Source: Chaetoderma sp. LZ-2023a (Eukaryota; Mollusca; Caudofoveata; Chaetodermatida; Chaetodermatidae). Taken from it: a stretch of DNA of 64,000 nucleotides. Positions 7,101 to 64,000 of the stretch are shown here, one piece after another. The position numbers and the translations under genes were made by a program. The first letter of the stretch is position 1. Each line of letters begins with the position of its first letter. Where the stretch lies: assembly GCA_034401795.1 (NCBI GenBank), contig CM067366.1, positions 74,716,129 through 74,780,128 of the forward strand, given 5' to 3'. The notes under the pieces are model-generated. The model ran no database searches. It saw only the letters and a program-made list of their open reading frames with translations, and was not told the origin of the DNA.

Positions 7101-7430
7101 ATTTAGTCTACATTTGTCACTTAAGGGCATGTTATGGTTTTTAGTTTTGTTCTTTACGTTTATAAGAGGTGCACTTGCAACTAAACTAGTTTTTACAATC
7201 TTTTTCTTAGAGGAATTATTAGTAGTACTTAATAGTACTGGCTTAGTGGATTGGGCTGGGCTAGACGTTTTCTTTGATGATATATTTGGTCTACATTTGT
7301 CATTTAAGGACATGTTACAGTTTTTAGTTTTGTTCTTTACATTTATAAGAGGTGCATCTGTAACTAAACTAGGTTTTACAATCATTTTCTTAGAGGAATT
7401 ATTAGTAGTACTTAATAGTGCTGGCTTGGT
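4188..7430 (-). pseudogene. CR1-like LINE ORF2: AP endonuclease and reverse transcriptase
   Basis: The endonuclease starts near 7060 with LYTNADVF, followed by AITEVKPKN, LILGDFNMPHINW (about 6670) and SKSDHSIIQ (about 6420), the usual APE catalytic blocks. The reverse transcriptase follows: SPGPDRLHP (about 5710), CDFMKAFDKVP, GIPQGSVLGP (about 5160) and FADDTKLF (about 5070), so the catalytic DD is kept. The thumb and C-terminal part run to 4188 (HLFKAPVRPHIEYANVVW). Breaks include a stop at 6543-6545, a likely indel in an A/G run near 5565-5580, a stop near 5222 and another near 4985. The product would nick target DNA and copy element RNA. Similarity to CR1 is by motif reading only. Confidence 0.85.
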
Positions 7431-7440
7431 GGAGTGCCTG
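7105..7440 (-). repeat. 183-bp in-frame tandem duplication inside LINE
   Basis: Two copies of a segment containing 'ttttagttttgttcttta' start near 7138 and 7321, a period of 183 bp or 61 codons. On the minus strand both read PLINVKNKTKN with KCRPNIS or KCRLNIS close by. The length is a multiple of three, so the frame is kept across the join between the esterase and endonuclease regions. Confidence 0.85.
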
Positions 7441-9290
7441 TGTTGCAGTGTGTAAGGCGTTGATTGGGCATGTTGCTGATTCGTGTATGATGTGTAGTAT
7501 ATGCTGGTGGATTCCTCCCATGGATCCTTCCATTGTGAAAATTTGGATTGTAAGCTGATCTCTCAGCTGGGTAAGTCTTTCGAACAGCGGAAGCATAGGT
7601 GTTGTAAGAATTGTTGATAGGGGTACTGTTGAGGTAGTTTCTACTACTCTCTGATAGGATACGAGTCCCCTGCACATGTGGATGTATGTGATCATAAAAT
7701 AATTCCTCATACACCTCACCACTGGGATTGAAGAAAAATGGTGAGTTGACTATAAATGTTGTATGTTGCGTTTCAGACAGGCTTAGTAGGATACAATTGA
7801 ACTCAAGTGTTAGATTATGGCAATACTCATTTTGTGGTCGTGGCAGCAAGGATGATACAAAGACCTGAATGTGAGGGCATATAGAGCGAATGCGATCGAT
7901 TAAGGCAGAGTAACCTTGAGTCATACTTTGTTAGTTTCGTTTGCCAATGTCGTTGCTACCTACATGTATGGCAATAGCATCATGACTATTTACTTGAAGG
8001 TATTTGTCTAATTGGTCTGTTAAATCATTAATCCGTGCCCCACGTAGAGTTCGAATATTAATATTGAGTTCATTGGTAGACATATGCCTTCCACTTAACT
8101 TTCTAAGTGTGGAGCTACCGATAATGAGGACCTTTTTTCGTTTGTCAGTTCAATTATCATTCGCGTTGGTGGAAGTGGGTTTGGTATTGGAAAATCCTGT
8201 TAATCGGCTCTTAGATATGTAGTCCTTATCCTGATTTTTAGTGTGGTAATGACTGCCATTATCAGCCTGAGTTAGCGATGGTGGTATTTCATGTTGAATC
8301 GGTACTCTGGTTCAGGAGTATCATGATGGCAAGTGTTGGACATATGAGTTTGGTGTCTGATTTGGATGTGTCCCTCGATTGGTCACTACAGGAATTGACC
8401 TAACGTTGACACTTTGAGTGTTTTCCGTGACCTTCAAAATTGGCGTTGTTTTGCCAGTATGCAGGTTAGACAGACTTTGTGAAACAACCTGGTTGCCAGT
8501 TGCGAGAATATCTCTATAAGATTAATGTTGTGGTGTACCGGTATCATTAGTTTGTGTTCTATGTTGAATATCATTGACATGTTTTATCAATGCATCAAAG
8601 TTATTCTGCATATCATTAACCTGCTTTACCAACTTATGAAGAACATCCATATTATTGGTTGTTTCTGTTCCTACAGAAATAGATGGTTTGGAATTGGTAG
8701 GTGGAGGTACTTCTGTCAGTTGTGTGTTTATTTGGTAATCAGCAATACTGGCTGCCTTTTGAGTACAATTTATTGCAGGATTTGGTGTTTCAGACACAGG
8801 TTCAGTAATATCATGATCAGCAGTGGTTACTTTAACGACTTCATGTGCTGTTTGCTTATCAGCGTTACTGTCACCCATTTCAGTACTATTTGTTTCATTA
8901 TTGGATGTTTCGGACACGTGTTCAGTACTATTATGATCAGCAATGGTTGTTACAAGGACTTCGTGTGCTGATCCATACCACTCGAGGAATTCTCAAATAT
9001 GTTTGGTTATCACTGTACAAGCACTCCAAGTGTACTTTCGACGGGATTTAGATGTAAGTGCCGAGAGCATGTAAAGTGGTAGCTTGGTACATGCATAATG
9101 TTCCCAATTTTTACAATTGGAGCACATCACCCTGTAATTGTCGTTTTGCTTACCACAGGAACAGAAAATGCGGAGACTGGATATATCTCCATTAAGGTTG
9201 TCGTTATCGTGTGGTATGTCATGTATTTGTAGAATGGGGGTAATACCATTTTGCATATCATCAGCTTGTGACTGTTGCAAATCTTCCGTC
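7412..9290 (-). pseudogene. CR1-like LINE ORF1: PHD-like finger, coiled coil, SGNH esterase
   Basis: Near 9180-9080 lies a PHD-like zinc finger (FCSCGKQNDNYRVMCSNCKNWEHYACTKL). The last Cys pair is damaged, with Trp where Cys is expected in YTWSAC. A Ser/Thr-rich linker with a short coiled-coil-like part (LHKLVKQVNDMQNNFDALIK) follows at 8522-8917. An SGNH hydrolase domain lies at about 8135-7600: block I LIIGSSTLRKL, block III HVGSNDIGKRN, and block V YDHIHPHVQG with the D-x-x-H pair. This PHD plus esterase order is known for CR1 ORF1 proteins, where the esterase is thought to aid RNP or membrane contact. A stop follows the GSND block. No clear ATG is in frame at the 5' end. Confidence 0.8.
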
Positions 9291-22859: not shown

Positions 22860-25800
22860 ATTTTATTACAATATATACGTTATGAAACCTACCCACATAC
22901 GGTTCTTCCAGCTGAGTTTGATTGAAATCTGCCCAGCGTTTAATGAGGTGTAGGCTTTTAACTGATTTACCAAGACTTTTGGAAAATCGAAGATGGCCAC
23001 AAAACAATTGACCAATCAAAATTCTGCATACAAAATCGGAAGCCTGCCACCATAGGGTCCTTCCATTCAAATTTGGTTGAAATCGCCCAAGCAGTTTGAG
23101 GAGTCGTGTTTTAAATTTTCATAAAATTCAAGATTTTCACCAAAAAGTTTACCAATCAAAATTCTGTATACAAGTTCTGAAACCTACATCCATAGGGTCC
23201 TTCCAGCCAAACTAGGTTGAAATCCGCCAAACGGTTAATGAGTTGCGCTTTGACAATTCCCAGTAATTTTTTGTACAAAATCTAAGATTTTCATCCAAAA
23301 AACTACCAATTAAAATTCTCAATACAAGTTCTAGAGTCTACCTTGTCCTTGTGTTGGAAGTTTCCTCTTTGTCAGAAGCACCTCAGAAAAACTCCAGGTA
23401 GTTGAGAAAAACCATATCGAATGAGAACTATATTGTGACTATTAAAACGTTGCGATGTCTTTAATGAGTTATTTACAGAATAGTTTAGTGCGTTGTCCTA
23501 TCGTTCGCTGTGTTAGTTTCGCATGTGGAGCTGTATCCACGTTCTGCAGCTTCAGCCTATCACTGTATAGGAAGTAGATCAAATCTTGGGAGATTAACTC
23601 GACGTGTGGTTGTATGTCCTGAGAGCTCAGCATATTTAACAGTGTGTCTGGGAGTGTGGTGTGTCTACAGTCGATAATGAGCTGGAGCATGACATCATTA
23701 AAGTGGATTCTTCAGCATTTCATGTAGGCGGTTAGCATATGGCTGTCTGTTTCCCTCCAAGGCCTCACAGTATAGGATGAAGTGTAGTCTCGTCTCTGGT
23801 TCTTTGCATCATAATTTGCAGACTGGGGAGGTTGCCTTTGATCTATCAGAGTGCCTTTATAGACTGTAGAGCGAGAGCCCCACATAAAACCTTAGCTTTC
23901 ACCCTCGCTTTGAGTGTTTGCATGATCGTCGCTATGGATGTAGTCCATACTGCCACCACTTTGTTGAGGAGGAAGATGGAGTCCGCTGACATGTATCTTG
24001 TGGAGGAGAGATAGCTGTAATCTGCCAGTGACTGATGACAGCTTTTCGGACATCTTTGTTCCACCTACCCTTCTCTGGAGTCCATATTCTTGCAGCCTCT
24101 TTTCAATATGAATGAACGAGCTGGAGGTGTGGTGTTTGGTTGCTAACTGCCGCCCATCGAACCTGAGTTCTTCTGAGTTCTTGGCTTCGATGAGGTTTCT
24201 AAATAGACATATGGCTCTGATGTCAATTTTGCACTAACTGGGATGATACCCACAAGGCCGAGAATGGCTATCTTTGCTGTCCGTTCAGGGAGGCTTTGGA
24301 TTTGGCATAGCTTCTCTCGCTGGAAAGCCTCTAAGCGGTGCTGCTGTTTCTTGTTTAATATCCACCATAGAATGCATCTAGTAAAATTTGGTTGAAATAT
24401 GTCCAGCAGCTGAGGAGTAGCATTTAGACCATTTCCGGTAGATTTTTCATAAAATCTACGATGTTCACACACAAAATTATCAACCAAAATTCTGAAAAGA
24501 TGCTCTAGAGCTTACCACCATAGAATTCATCTAGCCAAATTTGGTTGAAATATGCCATGCAACTATGGAGCAGTAGCATTTTGATAATTTCCGGTAAATT
24601 TTCCATAAAAGATTTTCACACAAAAACAAAATTCTGGATAGAAGTTCTAGAGCCTACCACCATAGAATGCATCTAGTCAAATTTGGTTGAAATATGTCAA
24701 GCAGCTAACTGAGCTAAGGAGTAGCATTTTGGCAATTACCGGTAGATTTTTAATACAATCTCAGATATTCACCCAAAAAATTGATCAATCAAAATTCTGA
24801 AAAGATCTAGAGCCTATCACCATAGAATGCATCTAGTCAAATTTGGTTGAAATATGTCAAGCAGCTGAGGAGTAGCATTTTGACCATTTCCGGTAGATTT
24901 TTCATAAAATCTCAGATTTTCACCCAAAAAATTGATCAATCACAATTCTGAAAAGATCATGAGCCTACAACTATAGAATGCATCTAGTCAAATTGGGTTG
25001 AAATATGTCCAGCTGCTAAGGAGGAGTAGCATTTTGACCATTTCCGGTAGATTTTTAAGATTTCACCTAAAAACTGATCAATCAAAATTCTGAAAAGAAG
25101 ATTTAGAGCCTATCACCATAGAATCCATCTAGTCAAATTTGGAGCAGCTAAGGAGGAGTAGCATTTTGACCATTTCCGGTAAATTTTTCATAAAATCTGA
25201 TTTTCACCCAAAAAATTGATCAATTAAAATTCTGAAAAGATGTTCTAACGCCTACCACCATAGAATGCTTCTGGTAAAATTTGGTTGAAATATGTCAAGC
25301 TGTTAACGAGTAGTATTCTGACCATTTCCGGTAGATTTTTCATAAAATCTGATTTTCGCCCAAAAAATTGATCAATTAAAATTCTGAAAAGATCTAAATA
25401 CAACCATAGAATCTAGTCAAATTTGGTTGAAATATGTCAAGCAGATAAGGAGTAGCATTTTGACCATTTCCAATAGATTTATAATATTTCACTCAAAAAA
25501 TTGATCAATCAAAATTCTGAAAAGAAGATCTAGAGCCTACCACCAGAGAATCCATCTACGGTAGTCAAATTTGGTTGAATTATGTCAAGCAGCTAAGGAG
25601 GAGTAGCATTTTGACCATTTCCGGCAGATTTTTCATAAAATTTCAGATTTTCACCCCAAAAACTGATCAATCAAAATTCTGAAAAGAGTTTCTAGAGCGT
25701 ACCACCATAGGATGCATCTAATCTAATTTGGTTGAAATATGTCAAGCAGCTAAGGTGGATTATCATTTGGACCATTTCCGGTAGATTTTTCATAAAATCT

Positions 25801-25970
25801 AATTTTCACCACAAAAATTGATTTGAAAAAACCATCTGGAGGGTAGCAGGCTACCAGCTTAGGATCATTCCAGCCAAAATTTGGTTGATATCGATCAAAC
25901 CATTAAGAAGAAGCGATTTGATGGATGGACAGACGACGACCGGGCATCATGGCATAAAGGCCAAGCGAGC
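22860..25970. repeat. Tandem array of ~150-bp units (family A interior)
   Basis: Units carry 'ccaccatagaatgcatctag', 'aaatttggttgaaatatgtc', 'gaccatttccggtagattt' and 'attctgaaaag'. Marker positions from 24366 (24366, 24519, 24661, 24821, 24972, 25117, 25259, 25405, 25544, 25706) give spacings of 139-162 bp, mean about 149. Three older units lie at 22860-23340, before a LINE fragment. The end near 25915-25970 ('gatggacagacgacgac', 'gcgagctaa') matches the end of family A at 43738. Confidence 0.9.
23343..24345 (-). pseudogene. 5'-truncated LINE 3' fragment inside repeat array
   Basis: Minus-strand frames give LEAFQREKLCQIQSLPERTA and LGLVGIIPVSAKL (about 24330-24220), then MQTLKARVKAKVLCGALALQ (about 23920) and a C-terminal piece ending LIIDCRHTTLPDTLL. 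These resemble the last third of the LINE ORF2 at 54560-55300 (YHRRTLKRLQHLPASTA, LLLGVIPIEGQI, VKAKLLTQRYNLY). The array resumes on both sides (23340 and 24360), so the fragment was inserted into it. No RT core is present. Confidence 0.75.
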
Positions 25971-29036: not shown

Positions 29037-31014
29037 GTGGAACAAGCTATTATACCGTTAAGAACACAGATGCTGAGACATTTTACCGAAGCGCTAGATC
29101 AGCTATATGAAATCTCCCAAAAGTACTGTGTCTCACATAATATACTCATAGCAGGAGATCTTAATTGTGATCTAACCATCAGAGAGAAGTTCAAGCGACA
29201 CCGCCTGATGCGAGAGTTCCTGCAGGAACAAGGTCTATTGTATAAAACATCTGGACCTACATTCATACATGCCAGTAATGCTGGGAGCTCAACTATAGAT
29301 TATTTCCTACTACCAGAACACTCATCACATAGAAACGTAGAGGTAGATAAGCATGAAATGGCCAGTAACTGCTCTGATCACTATCCTCTCTCAATCTCGC
29401 TTAACATCGCAATTCAGCCGCTGGGAATAAAACCGACGCAGACTGCAATGCCGCTCCCTCAGAAAGTAAACTGGAGCAAAGTCGATAGCAAAGGCTATAA
29501 AGCGTACCTGCAAAAGGCATTGGAAGGATAAAATCCTGAGATCAAGAGTATGCTGGCCATATGTAACGTATACGCTAAGCTCCGTGACACTCTCCATGCA
29601 GCTGCTACTGCCTCATCACCGCAGATTATCCAAAAACGCCAGAGGCCTTTCCGGCTATGGAATAATGAAATTGCTGACGCTATCGCAGAAAGTAAGATAG
29701 CTCTCCATAATTGGAAGACCTGTAACAGACCATCAAACCAAAACCACCCAGCCTCAGCCCGAAGATCTAGAGCCAAAAAGCTACTGCGCCAGGCACAAAG
29801 AAGATCAGTAGCGGACAAGCGTAACGCTGACACCCAAACCCTACTGTGTGCCAGAGGGAATGATAGAAGACTATTGGTTAGGCTAATCCGCAAACAGCGA
29901 GGCTGTAGAGTACCTGAAGTTACAGAACTCAAGGTCCAGAAAGATACATTCCCAAAAGACCGCATCATAGAGGGATGGTATTCACATTTCTCACAGCTTG
30001 CCACCTCACCAAATATCCCAGCTGATGTCCATAGGAAAGCAGAACTGGAGTTTGATGAACTGGTGTTATCTGACATTGCAGCAGGAGAAAATGATCCAAT
30101 TGCGGTGAAGTAGAGCAAGCAGTCAAGCGATTAAACAGCGGCAAAGCCTCAGATACTGATGGCATATCAGCCACCAACCTAAAAGGAGGTGGGATTGTAA
30201 CCATGCACCTGCTGAGCTTAATCTTGAATGTTATTGGCAAACTTAAAACCATTCCAGACATCTTCAAGGTATGCCAATTAACAACAGTCTATAAGAAAAA
30301 AGGCAATCCTAACCTAGCTACATCCTATCGCGGTATTACAGTAACATAAACCATTTGTAAAACTCTAGAAATGCTTCTGAAAGTCCGCATCCAACAGACA
30401 GTACTTAAAACACAACACCCTCTTCAGTTTGGATTTACATCCGGGTTATCACCAATGTACAGCGCACTGATGCTCCAGGAAGCTACCTCTGAATTGCGAA
30501 TCAAGAACCTTAATACATACATTGCTCTCCTTGATGCTAAGTCAAGCCTTGCGCGTATACTGTATCTTGCTGGAATAGAGGGAGCCACTTGGACCCTCAT
30601 CACAGACCTTCACAAAAATGCTACTGACTTTCTGACTGCCTGCACTGCTCCAGCTGAAAACCGTATGAAATACCTCAATTTGATCCACTCTAGCCTATGT
30701 ACCACGTGCAACACCAACACCCACAACATCTGGACCAACAACAGCATCCTAACATCATTCCTGCTCGATCCTTCTACATATATGTCTAACAAACCAAGCT
30801 GCAACTGTCATCATAAACTAGAAATGTCAGTGCGACAATACTTCTACTCACTACACCATCACAGGACCACAAAACTCACAATTATAAACGGTAATAAATA
30901 GACCAAGTAATTCATACACAAGTCTGCTTCTACTTTTGTCATTTTTGTATTTTACTCGCTCACGAGGTGCTCCCGTATATGGGAGGGATTTCCGAAATGA
31001 ACTGAACTGAACTA
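29037..31014 (+). pseudogene. LINE copy, 5'-truncated, RT core deleted
   Basis: The frame opens inside the endonuclease: LIAGDLNCDLTIRE (about 29150), SSTIDYFLLPEHS (about 29290) and NCSDHYPLS (about 29375). A linker region follows (FRLWNNEIADAIAESKI). The RT begins NSGKASDTDGIS (about 30140) and continues YKKKGNPNL and LQFGFTSGLSPMYSAL. After LDAKSSLARI the sequence jumps to a C-terminal tail (AENRMKYLNLIHSSL), so the block with the catalytic Asp pair is gone. The tail ends in short 'gaact' repeats at 30999-31014, abutting the inverted-arm composite. It resembles the 48486-55558 LINE in general organisation. It has several breaks and no ORF1. Confidence 0.8.
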
Positions 31015-31876
31015 AGCTGGTACACGATAGGCTGGTACCCGACTCTTCATTCCCTCGCTTCCGATTCTCTGGCTCAAGCTATGAAATGATGGCCACTGAC
31101 CAATAATGTCAAATTCCTATTCAACAGGCACAAAACCTATATTATTGCCATGCTCACTGAAAATTCATCAACTAAGAGAGCCGAGTATAACTCTTTAATG
31201 ATAATTAAGCCGGCAAAAACCAGCCTTTGCAGTGGTATTGGGAATATTTTCAAGAATTTATCACTGTATTGCCTTCGTTAGTCATTCCAGTGTTAAAATT
31301 AAAAAAAATGTCTTATTGGCCAGCAAATGAAGTAAAATGACAATTTTCATAACCAATCTTAACCATTAACAGTAATAATTTTGATAGGAAATATGAAGAT
31401 TTTGGGCTGAAATGCATAATTTTTATTCAGAAACATAAAAATCTTGGTACAAATGCAGAAATATGACCATTTTGACTGAAAATTAAAACATTTCTGTACA
31501 AAGCATGGATATCTATGTTCCAAATATGAAAATTTGGCAAAAACATGACCATTTAGGTCAGAAATGAAAAAAAAAGAATTTCCATGCAAAACAAAAGAAT
31601 TGATGATGGACACTGGCTCAAAGATCAAAATCTATACATCACTGTTTTCACAGTCAAGACCACCATCTTAACATGTAACAAAAGCTCAAATGTGATTGGC
31701 CGATATTGTCGAGTTTGCTTTAGCTTAGCTGACTTTTCATACACATATAGCTGGGAAAAACATCTACCAGTAGATCAATCTGGCCTAGTTTCTTAAGAAT
31801 ATATGTAAACCATAAATTTTCATAAATATGAATGGTCACCAGTAATAACACATTCAGCCAGTAAGCTCTGCATGAA
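31012..31876 (+). repeat. Outer part of left inverted arm, with a ~740-bp interruption
   Basis: Segments 31012-31080 ('aggctggtacccgactctt', 'gattctctggctca') and 31826-31876 ('gaatggtcaccagtaataa', 'cattcagccagtaagctc') match, in reverse complement, 44683-44745 and 44598-44652. On the right the two blocks are only about 30 bp apart; here about 740 bp intervene. The intervening part includes ~40-nt AT-rich units at 31370-31590 and a fragment near 31210 that resembles the MITE at 42600. Confidence 0.75.
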
Positions 31877-32127
31877 TTATTGCGCATGCCCGGAACATGG
31901 CTGGTGAAATTGTGCAGCTTACCAAATTCGTATCTACAAAATTGGAATATCACTTAAAATCGCGACCAACCAACAAATAAATAAATAAAAACATTGTATC
32001 ATCGAAATATGAAACAGCAAACTTGATATGGATCATAGACTGAGTATTTTGTGCAATTGGAATCTATATTCGTAAAATTGTCATCTGAATCCGTGTTTCC
32101 TAGTTATCACACAACAAACACGAAACT

Positions 32128-35100
32128 ATGGCTCGCCAACCGGAAAGAGTTTCTATCATCTTGATGTCCGCTGTGTTTATATTACTACTAACTTTCTTAG
32201 TGGAAAAAGTTCAACCAATCAAGCCGAGACGGACACTGCCTATTCTAGAAATTCGTGGCTCCATTGTTCACCAAAATCACGGTAAAATCAGCATACTCTT
32301 TAACATCGTACAGAGAGCGGCAAACGGTAGGAACAGTTTATTTAAATGTCGTCACAAAACATCATTGATATTGTGAATTCGTCTACTGAAGTGTGGAGAT
32401 ATAGAGACTAATCCAGGTCCCAATGTAAAGACACCCAAATATCCATGTGGCATTTGCTCAAACAATGTTACATGGAGAGCCAAAGCAGTACAATGCGACT
32501 GTTGTGACGTCTGGTATCACGCAAGTTGTGCAGGCATAGGTTCAGTGTCTTACCAACATCTAGCTAACAGTAGTGTGAACTGGTTCTGTTTAAAATGTGG
32601 TCTGCCAAACTGTGCAACGTCATTCTTTAGCTCAACACGCACATCAAACAGCACAAATAGCTTCTCTGTATTACAACATGAGACAGAGTCCACACAGAAT
32701 TCAAGAGATACCACCCATATGCAGAGTAAACTACCACGTGTAAGCGCTATACCCCTTGCTGAATCGTCGCCTAAAGCTATGAAAACAAACACTCAGTCCA
32801 GCCCAGTGAGTGATCCAAATACAACACTACCAAGCCCGATCCATCACCACAGATATTGTGCTACCCATGACAGTAGTAGTGAACCATCCAAGCAGTCATC
32901 TATACCTACAAAACACCCCAATCGGCTTAGAATATCAGTGATCAACTTTCAAAGCATTACCAATAAACAAGAAGCATTGCTACAAGAGATAAGCACCCTC
33001 AGCCCAGACATCATATTAGGAAATGAAACACACATAGATGATAACTTCCTTGACTCTGAACTCTTCCCAGAAGGCACACCAGATGAATACAGGTACACTC
33101 CTTTTCGACGAGACCGAAATGATGATGGAGGTGGTGTCATAATAGTCACTAGACCCGGACTTACATGTACCCGGAGAGAAAACCTTGACACGGACTGTGA
33201 AATAATCTGGGTTGAAATTGCGTTAGTGGGAGACAAAACAGCACTGCTAGGAAGCTTCTATAGAAACCCACCAGCTAGCATCGACAGATTACATGCCCTA
33301 CGTGCTTCACTCGACAAGGTTAAACAAACTTATCCATCATCCATAATATATCTCGGAGGAGACTTTAACCTGGGATTTATCGACTGGGACAACCACGCCT
33401 TGGTATCAGGAGATCCTAGACGTGCACAATTAGAGCTACTGATTGATTCTATCCTTAGCACATCACTTGAACAAGTAAACAGACACCCAACAAGAGGCAA
33501 CAGTCTCCTAGACCTATTAATCACCACACACCCAAGCCTAGTTACAAAGACATTTACCGCACCTCCATTTGCAGATCATGACATCCTAGTCGTTGATGTA
33601 ATGACAAGACCAAAAATCCTGAAGCAACCACCTAGAAAGATATTTCAGTATAGCAAGGCTAATTGGCAAGCCATCAATACAGACATTGAAGGACTGCAAA
33701 TAAACTACTTCAACCGAATTCCATCAAACTACAGTGTTGAAGAGAACTGGCAGCTCTTTAAGAGTACAATAACCGAGACAATGTCTAAAAATATACCCCA
33801 AAAAGAACTAGGGAGACATCAGAACGTTCCCTGGATAACTCAGAACATCAAAAAATTAATTAAGCAAAAACATCGAGCTTACAATACAGCACGAAGATTA
33901 GGTGAAGACAGGGACAAAGACAAATTTAAGAAACTACGCGTGAAAATACACCACATGCTACGGCAATCCTACCAAGTCTACATACATAAAATACTGGACC
34001 CAGAGAATGACCAGAGTAGTAAGAAATTCTGGCGTTACATCAAGAACAAACGGCAGGATAATGTAGGAATCAGTACCATCAGACAAGACGGGCAAATCAT
34101 CACCGACCCAGAAGGAAAGGTCAGAGCACTAAACGAACAATTCACATCAGTATTTACCGAAGAAAACATCAGTTCAATGCCTACCCTACCACCATCACCA
34201 TATAGCGTCATTCAGAACATAGAAATAACATCACTAGGAGTAGAGAAGGCTCTATAGCGCCTAAACCCATCAAAAGCATCAGGTCCAGACAATCTACCAT
34301 CAAGAATTTTAAAAGAAACATCAAGCCAAATTGCACTGAATGACTCAACAATACCATCAGCCTGGAAGACAGCCAATGTTTCACCGATTTATAAGAAAGG
34401 TGACAGAACAGCAGCTTCAAACTATAGGCCTGTTTCCTTAACATCAGTCATATGCAAGGTGATGGAGCATATCATAGCCAGCCAGCTAATGCAACATATG
34501 GACAAGAACAATTTACTCCACCCAAACCAACATGGCTTCCGACGTAACAGATCCTGTGAAACCCAACTTATTCTGACAACTCATGATCTCGCCCTAGCCT
34601 TGGACCAACGCAGACAGGTAGACATGGCCGTACTGGATTTCGCAAAAGCTTTTGATACGGTACCGCATCAACGTCTATTACTCAAACTACACCACTACGG
34701 AATACAAGGCAACATTCTGGGATGGATAACATCATTTCTCAGTGGAAGAACACAAAAGGTCGTCATAGAAGGTGCCTGCTCGGAGTCAACCAATGTCTTG
34801 TCAGGAGTACCACAAGGATCAGTTTTAGGCCCAATCCTCTTTCTCGTCTATATCAATGACATAGCAAACGACCTCGACTCCATCATTCGACTATTTGCTG
34901 ACGACTGCCTCCTTTATCATACCATAGACACACCCGAGGATCAACAAGGAGACTTAGACACCCTCATGGCCTGGACGGAAAGATGGCAGATGAAATTTAA
35001 TATCTCGAAGTGCAACATCCTCAAACTCACCCAACGAAGAACGTGCCTCAGCACACACTACACCATGAGCGGGGATCTGTTGGAGGAATATAAGGCAGCA

Positions 35101-35703
35101 CCATACCTTGGCGTCCAGTTAATGCATAACTTGAAATGGCACAACCAGATATCCAAATCAACATCATCAGCCCATCGAGTACTCGGCTTTCTGACGAGAA
35201 ATCTAAAATCATGCCCAACATCCGTGAAAGAGCGTGCATACCAATCACTTGTCCGACCCAAAATCGAGTATGCTTCCACAGTCTGGGACCCACCAACATG
35301 TGATCTGGTAAACCAACTCGAAGCGGTACAACGGAAGGCAGCAAGATTTGTTCTAAGTCGACCAGTCTACCTCTACCCAAGAGAGAGTGTCACAGCAATG
35401 ACAAATCGCCTAGGATGGGAAACCCTTGAACAGCGGCGCATGAAAGCCAATGCCATCATCATGTACAAGATTCTGCACAGGCAAGTAGCCATACCATCAG
35501 AATATCATCCCCAGTGGGCCAACATAAACACCACCAGGCGCAGCCACCCACTGAAGTTACAGCCATACCAAACAACAATCAGCCAGTACCACAGCTCGTT
35601 CCTACCCAGAACTGTGCCAATATGGAACAACCTGGCTGCAGACACAATCGCCGTCACGGATGTAGAACAATTCAAGATCTGCATCCGGGAGACGACCTTC
35701 TAA
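32128..35703 (+). pseudogene. LINE polyprotein: hydrophobic leader, 2A-like, PHD finger, APE, RT
   Basis: One frame runs through the whole span, about 1191 codons, broken only by TGA at 32374-32376 and TAG at 34255-34257. Order: a hydrophobic N-terminal segment (IILMSAVFILLLTFLVEK, residues ~9-27), a 2A-like motif (32386-32421), and a PHD-type finger (32446-32598: CGIC, CDCC, YHASC, CLKC). A Ser/Thr-rich linker leads to the AP endonuclease (INFQSITNKQ, GNETHIDD, GGDFNLGFIDW, FADHDI). The RT follows: NPSKASGPDNLPS, VLDFAKAFDTVPH, SGVPQGSVLGP and LFADDCLLYH, with the catalytic pair intact. The stretch between SSQIAL and NDSTIPSAW seems short by roughly 25 residues. The TAG sits where Gln is likely. 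It is nearly intact but not functional as read. Confidence 0.92.
32386..32421 (+). other. 2A-like ribosome-skipping motif LKCGDIETNPGP
   Basis: The peptide fits the D(V/I)ExNPGP consensus. Skipping would occur between Gly (32416-32418) and the final Pro (32419-32421), just upstream of the PHD finger. 2A-like sequences near the N-terminus of non-LTR elements are documented in other invertebrates. Here a hydrophobic signal-like segment lies upstream, with one stop between them. Confidence 0.85.
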
Positions 35704-35878
35704 ACTGAACGCGACGATGTAAATAGTGTACAGAAACCTTCAATTGAACAATGAACAATTCTTAATTTTTAATTTTTAATCGTGTGGACTGTGAAACCCA
35801 GCCATGTTTACAAGGCACGCACCTAGGCGTGATGTCCTTTAGGATTTTGTTTAGTATCAGTACAGATACAGATACAGA

Positions 35879-36535
35879 AGTGGATGATGGTGTGACTTAG
35901 TGATCCAAATAGGCAAGGGCCTCTCTTCCAAACTCAGAATTTGTTACTGGTAGAATGGTAAAGGTTTTTCAAAAAATTTAACAACCTGCAAACAATCATT
36001 GCATATTGTTTTATTTATTGAGCTATTTAGACCAAATATATTGCCATGGAATAAGCTCATTTGGCCTCTCAGGTTTTTCAGACCAGATGAGCTAGAACTG
36101 AGATCTGCAGAAAACTAAATAGTTTGAAATTAATTTGTCTGAAAGTGATTTAGGTCTTGCGGTTTGAGCAGCTATATATCCTTAAATCAAATAATCTGAC
36201 TGAATTAATAAAGAAACAAGGAGTTTTTGGTCTTGCTCACTCTGATTACAAATAAATCTGTTTTTAAGAGAGATTATATAAAGATTGTAGAATATCTTGA
36301 AAATAACCTGATTGACAGCTGTTTGCCACTCTCAATGGAACAGCAGGTTTCAGTGAAACTGTTTAAAAATAGTTTGCCTCTTGAAATATCATGCACGTAC
36401 ACGGTCATTGTCATACAGGGTGAAATTGAATATTGTTTCCAATGGTTTTATTAATTTGATAAATCTTTTTTCAGATGACAATTCTCACCTCAGAGGGATG
36501 TGTTACTAAATGTCAAACATTAGTCCAGTAAGAAA
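35879..36535 (+). repeat. Inner part of left inverted arm
   Basis: Matches the reverse complement of 43745-44597 over about 650 bp, for example 'ggtgtgacttagtgatccaa', 'taataaagaaacaagga' and 'gacagctgtttgcc'. The right partner has a 204-bp MITE plus TTAA added. The empty site here is at 36048-36055. Identity looks moderate with scattered changes, so the arms are old. Confidence 0.88.
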
Positions 36536-36659
36536 TGACAATGGACCCGGACATTTTAAGTAACAACCAGATTTTTGCCCAGAACTCTTCCATTGTATCT
36601 AAATTAAGACCACAAAAAATTCCCCATGAATCCCAATTGGGGAAAATGCTTTTTTAGCA

Positions 36660-37105
36660 AAAATTCAAAATGGCCGCCAAAGTGGCTGAAAATTATACAT
36701 TTCTAGATAGTTCAGTTACTATATAAGCTAGAGTGGCGATTAAAATCTCTAAAGTATTTTGACCGCCAAAATGGCCGAAAATTATACATTTCTAGATAGT
36801 TCATTTACCATATAAGCTAGAGTGGCGATTGAAGCCTCTAAAGATAATGTTTTGGGGTCATGGAATTGAATTCTGATATTATTTTTACAGAATAACACAT
36901 GCTTATTGTGGTAATTTATTCAAAATGGTGGAAAAACGTCAAAATGGCCGCCAAAATGGCTGAAAATTTGACATTTCTAGATAGTTCAGTTACCATATAA
37001 GCTAGAGTGGCGATTGAAGCCTCTAAAGTTAATGTTTTGGGGTCAAGGAATTGAATTCTGATATTATTTTTACAGAATAACACATGCTTATTATGATAAT
37101 TTATT
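36660..37105. repeat. Three tandem units with 'ctagatagttca' core
   Basis: The core 'ttctagatagttca' occurs near 36701, 36791 and 36976 (spacing about 89 and 186 bp). Each is followed by 'tataagctagagtggcgatt', and the last two by 'gaattgaattctgatatt'. The first unit is shortened. The sequence around the core includes 'aaaatggccgccaaa'. Confidence 0.85.
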
Positions 37106-37202
37106 CATCATAATTCACCTGTCAGGATGGCAGATATAACTAAAATTATGCATGGTGCATAGAGTCAGCAAATTACGGCTGGCTCCACCAAGTAATGTTC
37201 TG

Positions 37203-37895
37203 CTAAAGTTCAATGTGAGAATTTATATATTGCCCCTCGCATTTGCAGTGTATGCTGCATGGAATTCCTCTCTTGGCACAAGTACAAGATACACAACACT
37301 CGCTCTTACAGGGGCATCTGATCTCTGCCAATATATCTGCTGGTGCTGCTGCTTAATCAGTGATTACCGGCACTACAATCTTGTATCCGAACTCTTCCTT
37401 TTGGAGAATCGTTTGAAGATGACGCCATGTGCTTACTTGGTGATGTACACGTAGCGAGTGATAGTACATAGCTCTGCTGGTAGGTGGCATTCTCTCAACA
37501 GGTACATATTTGGATGATACCACATTTAAATAGCGCAGTTCATCGAGTCCTTCAGCATTGGTTCCCCCTATGTACAAATTCTTTGCAAAATTTTCTCCTA
37601 CCTTTAGAAGCACTTCTTTAGGTGTGTCTGTGTCACCAAAGACCAGCGCATCTGCGCGTAACTGCTGTGATGACTGGAGCAATTTCATGAGCTTCAGTTT
37701 CCCCACACCATACATTCCAGATGTTGTATCACAGCCTGACATAGCATGAGCAAATGGCAAACACATATACATCTCTCTCCCTAACACCTCCTTTGCAACT
37801 TTAATGGCAATGGTATGTTGTCTTGTCTGCATATAAACATGTTTCCCATAATTTGTGTGGTGGATAAACATTATCAGAATGTCTGTATCATCAGC

Positions 37896-37929
<34 letters not shown>

Positions 37930-40045
37930 TTTTCATATGTGTTTGCCAATTCCATTGCCTTCTTAACTATGCAGACATCAGCATCACCCTCTTCACCAGC
38001 ATGCTCTACATGGGTGCCTGCCTTCTGAAGGTGCTGAGATACTAATTTGATCAAACCCTGCTTGTTCTTTTTGTTTCCAAGAAATGCCTTCTTGTCTCCA
38101 GGTATTGGTGTTTTCATCTCCACAACAAATCTGGGAACATTTTCTCCTTTTGCTGTCGCTTTTGTTCCTGATCTTTTGTTGTTGCCACTTCATAGCTGTC
38201 AAACTCTACCCAAAGAGGAAGACCATATGAAGAATGGGAGAAAACAGAGTGGCCCAAACCAGTTTGTGCAAAAGAGCACATCCATCAAGCACTTTAGCTG
38301 CTGGTCCAACTGTCTCTGATGTGATTTCTGTATCCATCTCAAGTATACATTTAGCCATATCTGCCTTATTTGCTTTCCTCATACTCCCGTCATCTTTGAA
38401 CAGAGCAGGCGATACAGTTGCAAGTTCATGTGAAAACACACTTTTGTCAGGAGGGAAACCATTGACATATGACATGGACACAAATCGATGGTACAGCTCC
38501 TATGATGACATTCGGACTTCATCACCAGATATTTTGAGGGGCTTTCGCATGGCAGCAAATGTTTTAGCTTGTTCTACCCTCTTAAACTTTACATCGTCAA
38601 ATTTCTTCTCATTCAGTTTTTCTTGGATTGTGGTCCCAATTGGACTGTGGTTCTGGTGTACGCTCACATGAAGTCTCAGTTTGACATGCAATTATACCCA
38701 TTACATGTGTGGTATCATGCCCTGATTTTGTATCTTCATTATAGTCAAAGTTGCCAGCTACCCACTGAAAGAAACCGCCACGTTTGCTGACTTCAACTAG
38801 ACCGGATATTAATGAATCCACTCGCTTTCCAACAGCTGCACTCTTTTCAAACTGCAGAATCTGAGCATACGATATACATAGACCTAAGGATGACAGAACA
38901 TCAATGAGCACCCTTGATCGTGTTGTCTGCTTGATAAAGAGGTCAACTGATAACATAAGAGGTGATATGTATGATTGTTGGCCTGTTGCCTGCATGAGGA
39001 TGTGGAAACAATGAAGTTACTAGAAGTTGCTTCTTCATGTTGGCTGATTCACTTCTTGATTCTGAGAAAAGCTTCGCAACAAGGGTGTGGAGTGAGTCTG
39101 GAATGGACTTTTCTACTTCACTCAATTCAAATTCTGATGGACTTGGATAAGTGTCATTATCATGTTCTATATTCAAGATATCTTCTCTAATTTTTGCACC
39201 TATCAGTTTTGTCTGTTTTAGGGTTTCTTCACTGTCTCCTATGTTGTCTACATCAATATATGACTGATGTAAAATGTTATCTGCAGCAGCTCTGAATGTA
39301 AGTGTGTTAATTTTCCCTTCATTTTATACAACGCATACACATTCACCAAACTGCTTCACAAGGCGACGTTTCAGATGCTTCTCTGTGTATGGCGGAACAC
39401 CTGGCAAGTATGTTGCCAGCTGATCTCTCAGATCCTGAAGGGAGAATTGACCCTGCATTTGCTCTGTTTGTTGTAACCAGTAACACAACTTGTTGAAAGC
39501 ACAATCATTAAATGTGTCAAGGTTTCTAGAATTGCCACATGTTATGTCAACACAATTCTCGCACCCTGGAACACCTTTTCCTAGCATAAATAATGTCATA
39601 GAAGTTCGGTGATAATGAGCCTCTATTGCACGGAGATCTCCCGCAAAATGTATTCGTGCTTTTACATTTACTGCTAGATTGTCGTGGCTATTGTCACATT
39701 TTTTCATTAGTGACTCTTGGATGAGACTTCTTTTTTCTTTGCTTGATACAATCTCCACACTAGATATCTGAGATGCTCGGTCTGGATGGCGCTTGACATC
39801 ATCAGTCAAGTTCCTTTGCACATATCAAGCAATGTGTTGGATAATCAAAAGGCTTGCTTTTCGTTTTCAAACGTAGTGTAACTCCAGAACAATTTTCATG
39901 AACATAGTTCTTCTCAGTAGAAGATGTTTTCAAATGTATGTCATCACCTCGTTTCAATGAAACTTCATTTAGGGCTTGTGTCGCTTTAGCACCAAGTTCT
40001 CTGCCATTGACATGTATCTGTACATTTACATCGCAAATGATTCAG
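37203..40045 (-). pseudogene. FEN/XPG-like nuclease family protein with Cys-rich tail, decayed
   Basis: Minus-strand pieces, N to C: a His/Cys region ending PTHCLICAKEL (about 39840); a linker (39324-39821); FFQWVAGNFDYNEDTKSGHDT (about 38770, split here as FFQWVAGN and FDYNEDTK); PAAKVLDGCALLHKLVWA (about 38290), like an XPG N block; VEFDSYEVATTKDQEQK (about 38190); EEGDADVCIV, ADDTDILIMF and MSGCDTTSGMYGVGKLKLMK (37960-37700). The last resembles the acidic core and helix-hairpin-helix-like segment of FEN-type 5' nucleases. After PVITD and a TAA (37353-37355) the frame goes on to a Cys-rich tail (EIRCPCKSECCVSCTCAKRG). I recall multicopy relatives in cnidarian and mollusc genomes, mostly unnamed. 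Several frame changes make it non-functional. It lies between the long inverted arms. Its role is unknown; DNA cleavage is inference. Confidence 0.7.
37893..37929. repeat. (AAC)n tract inside the nuclease core
   Basis: About 12 AAC units on the plus strand read as a run of Val on the minus strand, in the strand that leads into the acidic ADDTD motif. Relatives, as I remember them, have about four hydrophobic residues there. Confidence 0.9.
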
Positions 40046-41054
40046 GGCGTGTTCAGCCCGGCCATCGCTGTTTAGCCCGCACAAGCTTCACAATCAAATT
40101 AGCAAGCCAAAACGGGTGAATAGAAAATAACACACAGGCTATAAGATCAACAATGCGAGAATGAAAATAAATCAAAGGTCATACAGTGTAAATCGTGAAA
40201 TTGGAGAAAATACGAGCATGAAAAAAGAACAAGTGCAATCTGTGCTTGATCCGAGCAAAATACGAGTTTTACTGCGTCTCGCAACGAGACAGCACGGACA
40301 ATAATACCGAAATATATCAAACATGCAATATAAACACGAGGGAAAGGAAAGGGATATTAAAACAGGCGCAACCTGGGTTCATATGGTATATATTCAACTT
40401 TTACTATGTCTAACAAGCAGACGACAAACAAATTCAACCTTATAAAATATGTGGTTTATATAATTTACTTAAATTGCGGATTTCTAAAATTACCCCGGAA
40501 CCTATATTTCTCAAACGATATGTATTTAACAATATGCTAAAAAGGGTGCAGCAAGTTATCCACTGTGACCTTGGCATTTGACCGTTTGACTCCAAATTTT
40601 GGAGACATGAATATGACTATGTGGCCAACAATCAAGCAATGATTCATCGAAGTATTCCCAGTGAGACGTGAGTAAGCAAATTTTGAAAAATGCTGCCGAA
40701 AATGCTTCAAAGAGATTTTAGGTCGCTGTGACCTTGACCTTTGACCTTTTCACGAAAGATTTGGTAAATATGTTCGGAACCTAACTGCTAACCTCCCACC
40801 CAAATTTGGTTAAGATACTACCAGTAGAATCAGCGTTATTAAAAGAATAGCTTATGAACCAACATAAATCTGTTTTTAGAGGTCACCTCTTTGACCTTGA
40901 ATAACCTACTTTCCCCATGTGGGAATCGTGGGGAATTTTTTCTGCAGACACTATGGTATATATAGGCAACTTTGAAACATAAATTTGCTTGTTACTTAAA
41001 ATATCCCGGTTCGACCAAAATCAAATGTCACCGAAAAGTCATTATTGTTTTGTG
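40046..41054. other. No gene; degraded copy of the ~180-bp repeat at 40550-40950
   Basis: The part before 40550 has no recognised content. At 40550-40950 blocks of 'gaccttgacctttgacc' type recur. AGGTCGCTGTGACCT (40720-40734) followed by TGACCTTTGACCT (40735-40747) repeats the IR3 plus DR1 layout of 14493-14520 with one mismatch. Confidence 0.6.
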
Positions 41055-41529
41055 TTACAGCATTTTCTCATTGAGTACATGGGTACAGCATGAAATAGAT
41101 TGTTCAGATTTACTGATTTTCCAGCTGATCATTGAAATCTTATATAAGATTTTTCATTCCAGTGAATTAATTAAGTTGTGATTTACTTCTTGGACAGCAG
41201 ATTTTCTATCCCCACACTTTTTGAGAAAATGCTGGAATAATGAAATCGCACCTGTTTGTTCATTTACAGGCCACGAGGAGACTTTTTTTGCCAGTTTACA
41301 CCTGTAATGACTGATTCTGCGGTCGCACCAGCCACTAAGTGTTAAACTTTCAAAAATAGTCTACTGCAGAAGCTATTTTGGCCGGTTTGGCGATTAATTG
41401 GTTATATTCAAGTCATTAACTCATTCAAAACCCAAAAACCATACAACATATTCCTCATGGTAACATGAGGTTGTTGGTTGCACACGGTACATGGCCATTT
41501 TGGGCTGATAGATAGTAATACCAGTTTAA

Positions 41530-41683
41530 CCCTCAGTCTCAATTTCAAGACACCTATACAGGAAACCTGTTAACTATTTTGAATCTATGGCAGCAGCAGC
41601 TCAGTCAAATTGGTTTCAAAATACTCAATAGAATATTCATTACTGTACATCATAAAGAATCTGTCATTTCTGGGCTATGAGGG
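41530..41683. mobile_element. TTAA-flanked MITE, left-arm copy (piggyBac-like)
   Basis: Starts 'ccctcagtctc' after TTAA (41526-41529) and ends 'gctatgaggg' before TTAA (41684-41687), 154 bp. CCC/GGG termini and TTAA duplications are piggyBac features. The interior has the hairpin core shared with 1371-1437. It pairs with 41875-42034. Confidence 0.65.
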
Positions 41684-41874
41684 TTAAATGGTTAACACTT
41701 TGAACTCTGAATATCAGGCTATGAACTCTGAATATCAGGCTAAACAAATTATTCTGGATGAAAGAAATATTATGTTGAATATTGTGTTTTAACTAGATTC
41801 AAGATTCTTTATTTTCATATAGATAAACAATTTAACAGTTCAAAACAGGCATATTTCCAAAACAGAAAGTTTAA

Positions 41875-42034
41875 CCCTCATAGCCCAGAAATGACAAAAT
41901 CTGTATTAAATGCAGAGTAATAAATATTATATTAAATATTTTGAAACTAATTTGACTGAGCTGCCACAGATTCAAAATATTCAATAGGCTTCCTGTATAG
42001 TTGTCTTGAAATTGAGACACTGACATTGTACGGG
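41875..42034. mobile_element. TTAA-flanked MITE, right-arm copy (piggyBac-like)
   Basis: Starts 'ccctcatagcccag' after TTAA (41871-41874) and ends 'attgtacggg' before TTAA (42035-42038), 160 bp. It is an inverted counterpart of 41530-41683, at the mirrored place in the foldback. The duplication of the arms therefore probably happened after this MITE inserted, or both arms descend from one element family that contains it. Confidence 0.65.
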
Positions 42035-42536
42035 TTAAACTGGTATCACTATTATCAGCCTAAAATGTCCATGTACCTTGTGCCCACGAGAACCTGGTAT
42101 TACCATGAGGAATATGTTGTCTGGTCTTTGGTCTTTGAATGAGTTAATCATAATGGCTTGAAAATAACCTGTTAATCACTGAACCATCCAAAATAATTTC
42201 TACAATGGTCTTGAGAAATATCTCTTTGTAGGCCACAAGACAATTTTTTTAAATTAATACTAGAATGGCTGGTTCATAACAGAACTAGTCATTAGTGTGG
42301 TACAATTGGAAAAATAGTCTCCTCTTGGCCTGTAAATAGACAGACAGGTGAGATTTCAATATTCCAAAGTTTTTAAAAAAAATGAGTGGGGATAGAAAAT
42401 CTGCTGCCCAAGAAGTAAATCACAAGTAAATTCACTGGAAAGTAGTTCAACAATCAGCTTGTAAGTCAGGAAATCTGAGCAATCTATTTCACGCTGGACC
42501 CCGTGCTCAATGAGAAAATGCTGTCACAGAAAACCA

Positions 42537-43738
42537 CAAGAGGCCCACGGGCCTGTGATGCTCACCTGGACCATTAGCATTTGAACAATTTACATTTAAC
42601 CCTTTAATGGTCATGCCGGCCAAAAACGGCCTCTGTCATGGTCTTGTGGAATGTCCATTTACAGGTCAAGAAAATACAATTTTTGAAAATGTACCACTGG
42701 AATTACAGTAGTAAATTTTCAAAAATTGTATTCTCTTAGGCTGTAAATTGACATTCAATAGGCAGATATTTAAATGTTCTTGACCAAATTTGACCATTAA
42801 AGGGTTAAATAGACATGATGAATAATTTTTGAAAAATCCAAAATGTCCACCAATGAAATTGACTAATCAAAATTCATGTTTGGTATGTTGATGCCTACCA
42901 CCATAGGATCATTCCCCTCGTTTCATTGAAATCGGACCATTAATTACGGAGTAGCGTTTTAAAATGGTTCTGGAAAATTTTGAACAATCCAAGATGTCCG
43001 CCAAAAAAATTGACCAACCATAATTCTGAATACAAGTTGTAGAGCATACCATGATAGAATCCTTCCAGTAAAATTTACTTTAAATGCGAGAAGCGGTTAA
43101 TGAGTAGCGTCTTGACAATTCCCATTAAACTTCTCATAAAATCTAAGATTTTCACCCCAAAAATTGACCAATTAAAATTCTGAATAAAAGTTCTGGAGCA
43201 TACCCAAATAGGGTCCTTCCAGCCTACTAGGGTTGACATCCGTCAAGCGATTAGTGATGAGTAGTGTCTCGACAACTTCCAGTAAATTCTTCATAAAATC
43301 TAAGATTTTCACCAAAAAACATGACCAATCAAAATTCTGTACACATATCTGAAGCCTATAGCCATAAGGTCCTTCCAACCAAATTAGGCTGAACTCCGCC
43401 AAGCGGCTAATGAGGAGTAGCATTTTGACAATTTCTGGTAAATTTTTCATAAAATCTAAGATTTTTACCCAAAAAAATTAACCAATCAAAATTCTAAAAA
43501 AAAACCCGGAGGGTGAACTCCGTCAAGCGGTTAATGAGGAGTAGCATTTTGACAATTTCCGGTAAATATTTCATCAAATCTAAGATTTTCACCCCCAAAA
43601 ATTCTGGGGAAAAACCCTGGATGGTACCAGTATATGATCATTCCATCCAAATCTGGTTGAAATCAATCAAACCGTTAAGGAGGAATTTGACGGATGGACG
43701 GACGACTGCCATGGCATAAGCTCATCAGGTGAGCTAAT
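42537..43738. mobile_element. Family A non-autonomous element with ~153-bp internal units
   Basis: Opens 'caagaggcccacgggcctg' with 'gctcacctg' near 42561 and closes 'cataagctcatcaggtgagc' near 43720-43735, so 'gctcacctg' and 'caggtgagc' form inverted subterminal motifs. Inside are four or five units with 'aaattctgaata', 'ccttccag' and 'agtagcgttttga', spacing about 153 bp. It is interrupted by the MITE at 42600-42804. Relatives start at 19238 and about 62746. No protein is encoded. Confidence 0.75.
42600..42804. mobile_element. TTAA MITE with perfect TIRs inserted in family A
   Basis: Termini 'ccctttaatggtca' and 'tgaccattaaaggg' are perfectly inverted. TTAA lies on each side (42596-42599 and 42805-42808), giving 205 bp. 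The interior is also palindromic in part ('gtccatttacag' with 'ctgtaaattgac'). The family A copy at 19291-19302 shows the unoccupied single TTAA. CCC ends plus TTAA duplication indicate mobilisation by a piggyBac-type transposase, none of which is in the window. Confidence 0.85.
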
Positions 43739-43744
43739 AATGAC

Positions 43745-44745
43745 ATTTTGGTGACATGGTCATGTTTGACATTAGTAAAGCATCCCTCTGAAGTGAGAAC
43801 TCTCATCTGAAAAAAATATATCTCAAATTAATAAAACCAGTGGACACAATATTCTGTTATGACAAAACCATTTCATTCTGTATAACAGTGTACAACATAG
43901 ATGATATTTCAATAGGCAAACTATATTTAAAACAAGTTCACTGAAAGCCGCTGTTCCATAGAGGGGCAAACAGCTGTCAATGAAGTTATTTTCAAGATAT
44001 TCTACACTCATATCATCTCAGATTTTTTTGTAATCGGAATGAGCAAGACAAAAACACTCCTTGTTTCTTTATTAGTTCAGTAAGAGTATTTGATTTACGG
44101 GTACAGCTCAAACCTCAAGATCTAAATGACTTTCAAACACAAAAATTTCAAAAATATTTAGTTTTCTCCAGATCTCAGTTTTAGCCCAGCTGGTCTGAAA
44201 AGCCTGAGAGGCGAAGTGAGCTTAACCCTTAGCGCTCTGATGTCAATATATCTTTTTACTGTGTTAATAGCAAAGAAACTGGTGTACATTTTTCAACAAT
44301 TTTGGTGGAAGATGTTGCTGTCTACGACAGCACCATCTTCCAACAAAAATGGATGAAAAATAAACACCAGTTCATCTTTTACTTTAATTTGAAAATTTAT
44401 AATTTTGACATCAGAGTGGTACGGGTTAATGTCATGGCAATATATCTGGTCTCGATAGTTCAAAATAAATAAAACACTAGGCAATGTTTGTTTTGCATGT
44501 CGTAAATTTGGTGAAAGACATTAACCTTGAGCTAATTCTGAGGTTGGAAGGCAGGCATCTGACCATTTGGATCACTAAGTCACACCATCCTCCACTTCAT
44601 GCAAAGCCTATTGGCTGAATGCGCTATTATTGGTGACCATTCAAATTTAATTAAGAAAATTGACCGTTGACATGTCCTGAGCCAGAGAATCGTCAGCGAG
44701 AGTATGAGGAGTCGGTACCAGCCTATTATAAGTTTGGTTGCATTT
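43745..44745 (-). repeat. Right inverted arm of the nuclease composite
   Basis: Reverse complement of the left arm pieces 31012-31080, 31826-31876 and 35879-36535. It reads through without the LINE that splits the left arm. It is interrupted only by the MITE at 44226-44425. Its inner edge abuts the family A element at 43738. Confidence 0.87.
44226..44425. mobile_element. Fully palindromic 200-bp TTAA MITE in right arm
   Basis: Starts 'cccttagcgctctgatgtca' and ends 'gacatcagagtggtacggg', with TTAA at 44222-44225 and 44426-44429. Nearly the whole element folds on itself around 'gctgtctacgacagc' (about 44320). The left arm at 36048-36055 ('gaataagc') marks the unoccupied site. Confidence 0.85.
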
Positions 44746-62745: not shown

Positions 62746-64000
62746 TCAACAAGAGGGCCAAGGGACCTGTATCACTCTGGACCATAGGTATCTCAACTAG
62801 AATGGTCATTAACAATAAGTAGAACTCTAGTGAGCTGAGCAGACATGTAACAAAAAACAGAGGCCATGTTTCTTTATGTATCAACTTCTCTTGAACAACT
62901 TTAATGGCCCATAGTCATCAAAATCATCTCCTAAACTTCAGTCCGATCACTTCAGCAGTTCTGGAGAAGTTGTTTTCTCGAAAACTAGGTCATCCAAGAC
63001 AGTCACCGAATGAGTCGGTAAATCAAGTTCACAAGTGAACAAATTTGGTTTAGGGCTTGCACTAGATGATATTTTATGAGTTCTGAATCGATCCCTCAAA
63101 CGGTTTCGGAGAAGTTTTTTAAAGATGTTTCCTAAAATCGACCAAAATCCAAGATGGCCACCGGCCCAATTGGCCGATCGGCTTCGTTTGAACAAACTTG
63201 AATCTCTATGCCCTATGGATGCATCCTGCCAAATATAACTGAAATAGTTCCAGTAGTTATCGAGAAGACATTTTAAACTTCCCATTGCTTTAGTATGGGA
63301 GCGTTTGGCTGGAAAATGATCCAAGATGGCTGCCAAACCGCTTATCTGACTGTTTCGAAAATTGCAAATTTGAGATCAGTTTTTGAAATCTGTCAAGAAA
63401 CTAAGGAGGAGATGTGTTTTGACACAAGTTTTTTACCACACAATTTAAATATAAAAAATCTGAAGAGGTTCTAAAGCCTACCTTCATATGATCGTTCTAG
63501 CCAGATTTGGTTGAAATCTGCAAAGAAACTAAGAAGATGCATTTTGACACTTTCAGGTAAATTTGCAACAAAATCTACATCTAAAGCCAAGAAACAAAGG
63601 AGTAGCGTTTTAAAGCAATTTGACAATTTCATGCGAAAATTGCAAATTTGAGATCAGTTTTTGAAATCTGTCAAGAAACTAAGGAGGAGATGCGTTTTGA
63701 CACTTTTTGGTAAATTTTAAACAAAATCTAAGTTTTTTACCCAAAAAATTGAAATATAAAAAATCTGAATAGAAGTTCTAGAGCATACCTCCGTATAATC
63801 GTTCTGGCTAGATTTGATTGAAATCTGCAAAGAAACTAAGAAGATGCATTTTGACACTTTCAGGTAAATTTGCAACAAAATCTAAGATTTTTACCCAAAA
63901 AATCGAAATATCAAAAGTTTTAATAGATGTTCTAGAGCCTATGTCGGTATGAACCTTCTAGCCAAATTTGGTTGAAATCTGTTAAGAAACTAAGGAAGAG
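62746..64000. repeat. Family A-like copy with ~152-bp units, running off the window
   Basis: Opens 'caagagggccaagggacctg' like 42537. The region 62940-63140 matches 470-720. From 63350 units with 'aaactaaggaggag' or 'aaactaagaagatgc' alternate; markers near 63392, 63519, 63671, 63826 and 63978 give spacings of mostly 152-155 bp. Two unit types in alternation suggest a ~300-bp dimer. Confidence 0.8.

Follow-up and report, generated by a model that had tools for sequence, protein, structure and literature searches.

Do long inverted arms around a nuclease gene mark the ends of one large mobile element, or are the arms and the gene separate layers of repeats? The question is raised by a stretch of 64,000 nucleotides (the window) from the caudofoveate mollusc Chaetoderma sp. 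LZ-2023a (contig CM067366.1, positions 74,716,129 to 74,780,128), in which decayed coding sequence for a FEN/XPG-like nuclease lies between inverted arms. The original prediction proposed that the arms could be the ends of an undescribed large transposon or else two repeat copies between which the gene had been caught. We found that the nuclease is not a stray gene: it is the enzyme of a separate DNA transposon that has terminal inverted repeats (TIRs) and target duplications of its own. The locus is very probably a nested insertion, in which this nuclease transposon sits inside one copy of a dispersed repeat (the arm repeat). Arms and nuclease thus most likely form two separate, unconnected repeat layers. 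The evidence is the empty site that other arm-repeat copies show, together with the ends and target duplications of the transposon elsewhere in the genome.

Inverted arms and the layers between them

The inverted arm blocks and the decayed nuclease-like coding remains were both present as predicted. The left arm (35877–36520) aligned with the right arm (43736–44673) in inverted orientation at 80% identity across 487 columns (E 8e-122), with a further 175 columns at 78%, a likeness far beyond chance. Shorter inverted pairs were complementary at 86% (36043–36125 with 44151–44233, and 35877–35941 with 44534–44598), 92% (36283–36332 with 43960–44009), 87% (31823–31876 with 44596–44649) and 82% (31039–31083 with 44671–44715). 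The nuclease-like remains occupy 37353–39824 on the minus strand, where they are split over several broken frames and lack an internal segment. The enclosure did not hold up as a single unit, as the left arm is interrupted twice, by a long interspersed nuclear element (LINE) at 31877–35876 and by the nuclease transposon at 36521–41024. The layers of the arms are as follows, with identities given to reference copy L017 of the arm repeat unless stated.

31028–31083, plus strand: left terminus of the arm repeat, left copy (TAGGCTGGTACCCGACTC); the internal part up to the next block is deleted in the window copy
31080–31876, plus strand: arm repeat, left copy, 94% identical
31877–35876, plus strand: LINE insertion in the left arm, with endonuclease, reverse transcriptase, PHD finger and a 3′ tail of ACAGAT repeats
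35877–36520, plus strand: arm repeat, left copy, the left arm of the original prediction, 95.5% identical
41025–41852, plus strand: left copy resumed beyond the nuclease transposon, 83–89% identical
41870–44725, minus strand: right copy of the arm repeat, inverted and of another subfamily, mostly 76–83% identical, and 92–94% identical to copies L039 and L040

With the LINE omitted, the left arm aligned unbroken across the 31877–35876 site in all four arm loci tried. Within the LINE, 32377–35703 forms a single frame broken by one stop codon, with a 2A-like IETNPGP string near the frame start, the PHD finger, the endonuclease and the reverse transcriptase.

The nuclease transposon interrupts the left arm

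A genome search with the left arm, for which the best 40 of 327 candidates were scored, returned the window, a duplicate of it (99% identity) and 38 other places (94–96%), nearly all of which stopped at or near query position 642. We read 17 of these 38 (L012–L028, 10 kb each). In all 17, sequence matching the window up to 36520 was followed, a few bases on at most, by sequence matching the window from 41025 onwards, and AAATGTCAAACAT was followed directly by GACCATGTCACC with no transposon between them, whereas the order in the window is AAATGTCAAACAT, transposon, ATGTCACC. At 16 loci the sequence of the empty site is AAATGTCAAACATGACCATGTCACC; in L018 it, like the junction, differs by one base. 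Since all 17 copies are contiguous across 36520/41025, the segment 36521–41024 with the nuclease in it represents an insertion into the left arm.

Searches in both directions agreed with this arrangement: no transposon sequence was matched in the 17 arm loci at E 1e-5, and neither of the two arm blocks was matched at that threshold in seven nuclease loci (L031–L036 with 1.5-kb flanks, and L045). We also compared coordinates, setting 142 nuclease match rows against 80 listed arm places (for the right arm, the 40 best pieces of 80 rows, one per scored place) at a distance of 50 kb. Only 2 of the 142 rows, those of the window and of C8:75.09 Mb, came that close to a listed arm, and both belong to one segmental duplication; arms flanking the nuclease at independent loci, which the idea of a large element predicted, were thus not seen among the listed places. 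Among the places listed, arms are dispersed without the nuclease and nuclease copies occur without the arms.

The transposon itself comprises the following features in the window, aligned to L045, a full-length copy.

36521–41024, minus strand: decayed copy of an Academ-like DNA transposon, 3′ end at 36521, by alignment to L045 666–6976
36521–36577, minus strand: intact terminal inverted repeat (TAGTCCAGTAAGAAATGACA...), 79% identical to the opposite end of the L045 copy
36671–37107: tandem repeat in the subterminal part of the transposon, with copies of 163 nt lying 89 and 185 apart; other transposon copies have it too
41005–41030: damaged far end of the transposon, with the last ~15–20 bp and 4 bp of target (GACC) gone, around ATGTCA

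The window copy corresponds to positions 16–1136, 1190–2434 and 4088–6311 of the L045 element, and part of the presumed transposase region is therefore deleted. The presence of ATGTCA near both breakpoints suggests that the far end was lost in a small microhomology deletion. With one terminus and some of the presumed transposase missing, the window copy should be immobile.

A high-copy family with its own ends

The unit inserted in the left arm recurs across the genome as a transposon. L045 (666–6976) measures 6,311 bp, with inverted repeats of ~66 bp that begin TAGTCCAGTAAGAA and are 77% identical to each other, and is flanked by the target duplication CAA. Among L029–L036, homology starts at one base, window 36520/36521, and the junction sequence differs in the six loci that lie outside the segmental duplication; farther out, short repeat-like matches of 72–78% link two pairs of these loci. 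Copies with both ends listed numbered 13 when paired by eye, and 11 were read, L045 included; C833, which has the same spans and scores as C904 on the opposite strand, and the window copy were left out. Target duplications flanked nine of the 11 and measured 3 bp in eight and 4 bp in one. At the left end, 9 of the 11 copies were identical over the first 20 bases, and TTACTGGACTA was present at the right end of all 11. The family is a high-copy one: the nuclease search of the genome, which drew on the best 139 of 9,248 first-look candidates, gave at least 142 match rows, 10 of which, at 57–59% identity, form a more distant subfamily (three read, L066–L068). The suggestion that the nuclease travels as the enzyme of a transposon was therefore sound for this TIR transposon and, as far as the listed places reach, wrong for an element bounded by the arms.

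Three observations weigh against the nested insertion and its transposon. With its far end and 4 bp of target lost, the transposon copy in the window lacks an intact target duplication; two of the 11 paired ends elsewhere also have none; and the arm places are the best-scored only, which leaves room for an unlisted arm close to one or another nuclease copy.

A segmental duplicate of the window lies ~337 kb away in the 2.44-Gb genome (G000:C8:75074464-75099463). The 25 kb fetched from it align with window ~10635–48529 in long blocks of 96–99.8% identity, and the nuclease loci of window and duplicate (L029 and L030) are 98% identical. The duplicate holds the 36521 end of the transposon, the nuclease part and both arm blocks, and those insertions are therefore older than the duplication. 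It does not contain window 30047–35205 and 39063–41614; these gaps look like later deletions in the duplicate, because their breakpoints do not match element boundaries.

The arm repeat across the genome

The arm repeat is a dispersed element of ~5.6 kb with terminal inverted repeats, taken from reference L017 (oriented, 2138–7763). Most of the 17 loci share most of it, mainly at 91–98% identity, and some are truncated, rearranged or run off the stretch read (among them L012, L022, L024 and L026). Its ends are TAGGCTGGTACCCGACTCC and TAAGCTGGTACCCGACTCC. Both were visible in 10 of the 17 loci, and an exact 9-bp target duplication was found in nine of these, with 8 of 9 bases matching in the tenth, L015. 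The repeat is apparently non-coding, as no trustworthy coding sequence was found in L017, the only 5.6-kb copy examined. Arm-repeat ends were clustered in L018, L023 and L028, where copies have apparently inserted into or beside each other's ends.

In the window, the two arms are different subfamilies of this one repeat, and their outer ends, at 31028 and 44725, are the same 'left' terminus. The right copy (41870–44725) contains the right arm of the original prediction (43745–44597) and tandem repeats at 42.8–43.6 kb; a genome search with the right arm scored the best 40 of 4,572 candidates. We propose that two copies of different subfamilies met tail to tail at ~41.86 kb, where the meeting point lies at 41853–41869, which would have created the inverted arms. 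The left copy also took up the LINE and, in a separate event, the nuclease transposon. The earlier alternative of a gene caught between two repeat copies thus came close, erring in that the nuclease is not a stray gene but the enzyme of a transposon inserted in one arm.

The target duplication expected outside the arms was not found: the 9 bases beyond the outer termini are unlike, GGTACACGA on the left and TTATAAGTT on the right, and because of this difference the arm pair does not look like one insertion. The same bases bear on a second origin for the arms, in which the arms alone would go back to a single old foldback derivative of the 5.6-kb repeat and not to two insertions, with the nuclease transposon landing later. 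The shared 'left' terminus at both outer ends fits such a derivative, as does the nearly common internal point at which both copies end (L017 positions 7026 and 6883), but the halves come from subfamilies ~20% apart and the pair has no shared flanking 9-bp duplication, and we regard this origin as unlikely. A single large foldback transposon, with the arms as its ends and the nuclease as its enzyme or cargo, is very improbable, because what favours it, the enclosure and the matching termini at the outer ends (31028 and 44725), is set against an arm that is empty in 17 of 17 loci read (none of which holds the nuclease transposon), a nuclease unit with TIRs and target duplications of its own, arms of different subfamilies (~95% versus ~80% to L017), mismatched bases beyond the termini and, among the places listed, no linkage of arm and nuclease elsewhere. 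Nested insertion of the nuclease transposon into one arm copy removes the false lead of a large arm-bounded element.

Tandem repeats at 43.1–43.6 kb have spacings of 124–157 bp and are also present within the right-arm repeat subfamily. Via the duplicate locus they cross-match, at roughly 66–82% identity, stretches elsewhere in the window; the places involved are 22873–23342, 24362–25822, 42824–43706 and 63451–64000.

The transposon protein and its FEN/XPG-like domain

Two sets of coding remnants in the window correspond to the two parts of the transposon protein.

37353–38189, minus strand: FEN/XPG-like C-terminal domain remnant, with AGEEGDA, ADDTD and GCDTTSGMYGVGK
38609–39824, minus strand: N-terminal half remnants of the transposon protein, in three overlapping or adjacent frames (38609–39016, 38943–39323 and 39324–39824)

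On the coding strand of L045 the protein parts are spread over several frames. A CIIC...HENC stretch is found near the N-terminus, and the middle holds DNFDYN, LTFDQPLY and SGIEELW, in which, on our reading of the sequence, a DDE triad may lie. FDSY, AGEEGDA, ADNTD (ADDTD in other copies) and GCDTTS follow in the C-terminal part, and then a cysteine-rich tail, for which two of seven members gave a weak match to the TCR/CXC profile (E 0.14 at best). A poly-valine run stands right before ADDTD at ~37890–37930 on the minus strand; its length differs in L032, L036 and L030, an in-frame length variation beside a presumed catalytic residue.

The acidic motifs of the C-terminal part follow the order of FEN1 with similar spacing. 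In the four aligned copies without the longer poly-valine run the pattern is D-42-FD-69/70-E-27-D-54-GCD, with the 27 replaced by 29 in L036, 37 in L032 and 34 in the window, compared with D-53-FDG-72-E-21-D-63/64-GTD in 27 archaeal FEN1 proteins (those with all five hand-written motifs, out of 62 proteins extracted from 80 loci). A Pfam scan added a weak match to NYN, a PIN-like family, for three of the seven aligned members (E 0.00088 at best); apart from TCR, the other Pfam matches of profile A1 were single and chance-looking (GP4, E 0.0096; 7TM_GPCR_Srb, 0.014; and others).

'FEN/XPG-like' is accordingly meant at the level of motifs, and its statistical support is weak. Several results count against the assignment, which draws on the order and spacing of the acidic motifs, the weak NYN match and nothing else. 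Alignment of profile A1 with the 62 archaeal FEN1 proteins by hhalign gave P 0.28, the only aligned patch pairing AGEEGDA with APSEGEA, and a global run gave nothing. Pfam XPG_I, searched over the whole genome, had 10 matches at E up to 10, none of them at a listed transposon copy. Searches of the Protein Data Bank (PDB) with the nuclease region found no solved structure of note, and the single match of profile A1 there (E 1.1) was taken as chance. The putative DDE region likewise had no confident match in single-sequence searches of Pfam, NCBIfam and PDB. A single-sequence AlphaFold2 model of the 278-aa nuclease remnant of the window was useless (mean predicted local distance difference test score, 33.5), no relative was seen among 100 pattern stretches from viral contigs, and no paper was found with the motif strings MSGCDTTS or SGCDTTS.

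If the domains have been read correctly, movement would depend on a transposase of the DDE type located in the N-terminal half of this protein, and the FEN/XPG-like domain would trim or resolve ends during excision or integration. A bolder version would make the family a distinct lineage in which a single polypeptide carries a DDE transposase, a flap nuclease of FEN/XPG-like type and a cysteine-rich, CXC-like tail, with the nuclease processing flaps in end joining and so setting the 3- or 4-bp duplication; we think this doubtful.

Comparison with known transposons

The nuclease most likely comes from a transposon family that is new but of a known kind. The best fit is the AcademX lineage of Academ, because of the 3- or 4-bp duplications and the nuclease-like domain, a placement made from described features. 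AcademX elements have terminal inverted repeats, and their accessory nuclease is of the XPG type. Our literature searches found no paper joining Academ transposons with XPG, and none joining XPG, transposase, DNA transposons and nuclease domain.

Kolobok elements offer another comparison. Their target is TTAA, which is absent from the 11 paired ends of the nuclease transposon. KolobokE, KolobokP and KolobokD carry a DDD/E transposase alongside a nuclease; in the available part of the source, the Kolobok nucleases are of PD-D/ExK, His-Me finger and DEDDh types, not FEN/XPG (PMC9587614).

The arm repeat resembles non-autonomous TIR elements derived from MuDR/MULE or AcademH in its 9-bp target duplications, although L017 has no confident coding sequence by which to place the source superfamily. 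According to the accessible text of PMC10045372, IS256/MuDR elements have target duplications of 4–10 bp and AcademH elements have ones of 9 or 10 bp.

We consider it rather improbable that the nuclease transposon belongs to another superfamily, or to a lineage of its own with a FEN/XPG-like domain, instead of AcademX. Pfam and NCBIfam have no confident match to the protein, and the AcademX label rests on described features; both points would suit such a placement. Set against it are duplications of 3 or 4 bp and a nuclease-like accessory domain, which correspond to the two features of AcademX in the accessible text of PMC10045372, and a length of 6.3 kb, near the 5,565-bp mean of the curated elements in the available part of a report on Academ amplification in bivalves (PMC10294476).

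Base-level boundaries, termini and target duplications are now given for a high-copy, nuclease-carrying transposon family in the Chaetoderma sp. genome, which could help in studying the role of the accessory nuclease in Academ-like elements. As far as the accessible text of PMC10045372 describes these groups, target duplications are 3 or 4 bp in AcademX and 9 or 10 bp in AcademH, a difference related there to the encoded nuclease or helicase, and AcademX resembles the nuclease transposon in its 3- or 4-bp duplications, in its form as a multi-kb TIR element and, at the level of motifs, in its accessory nuclease.

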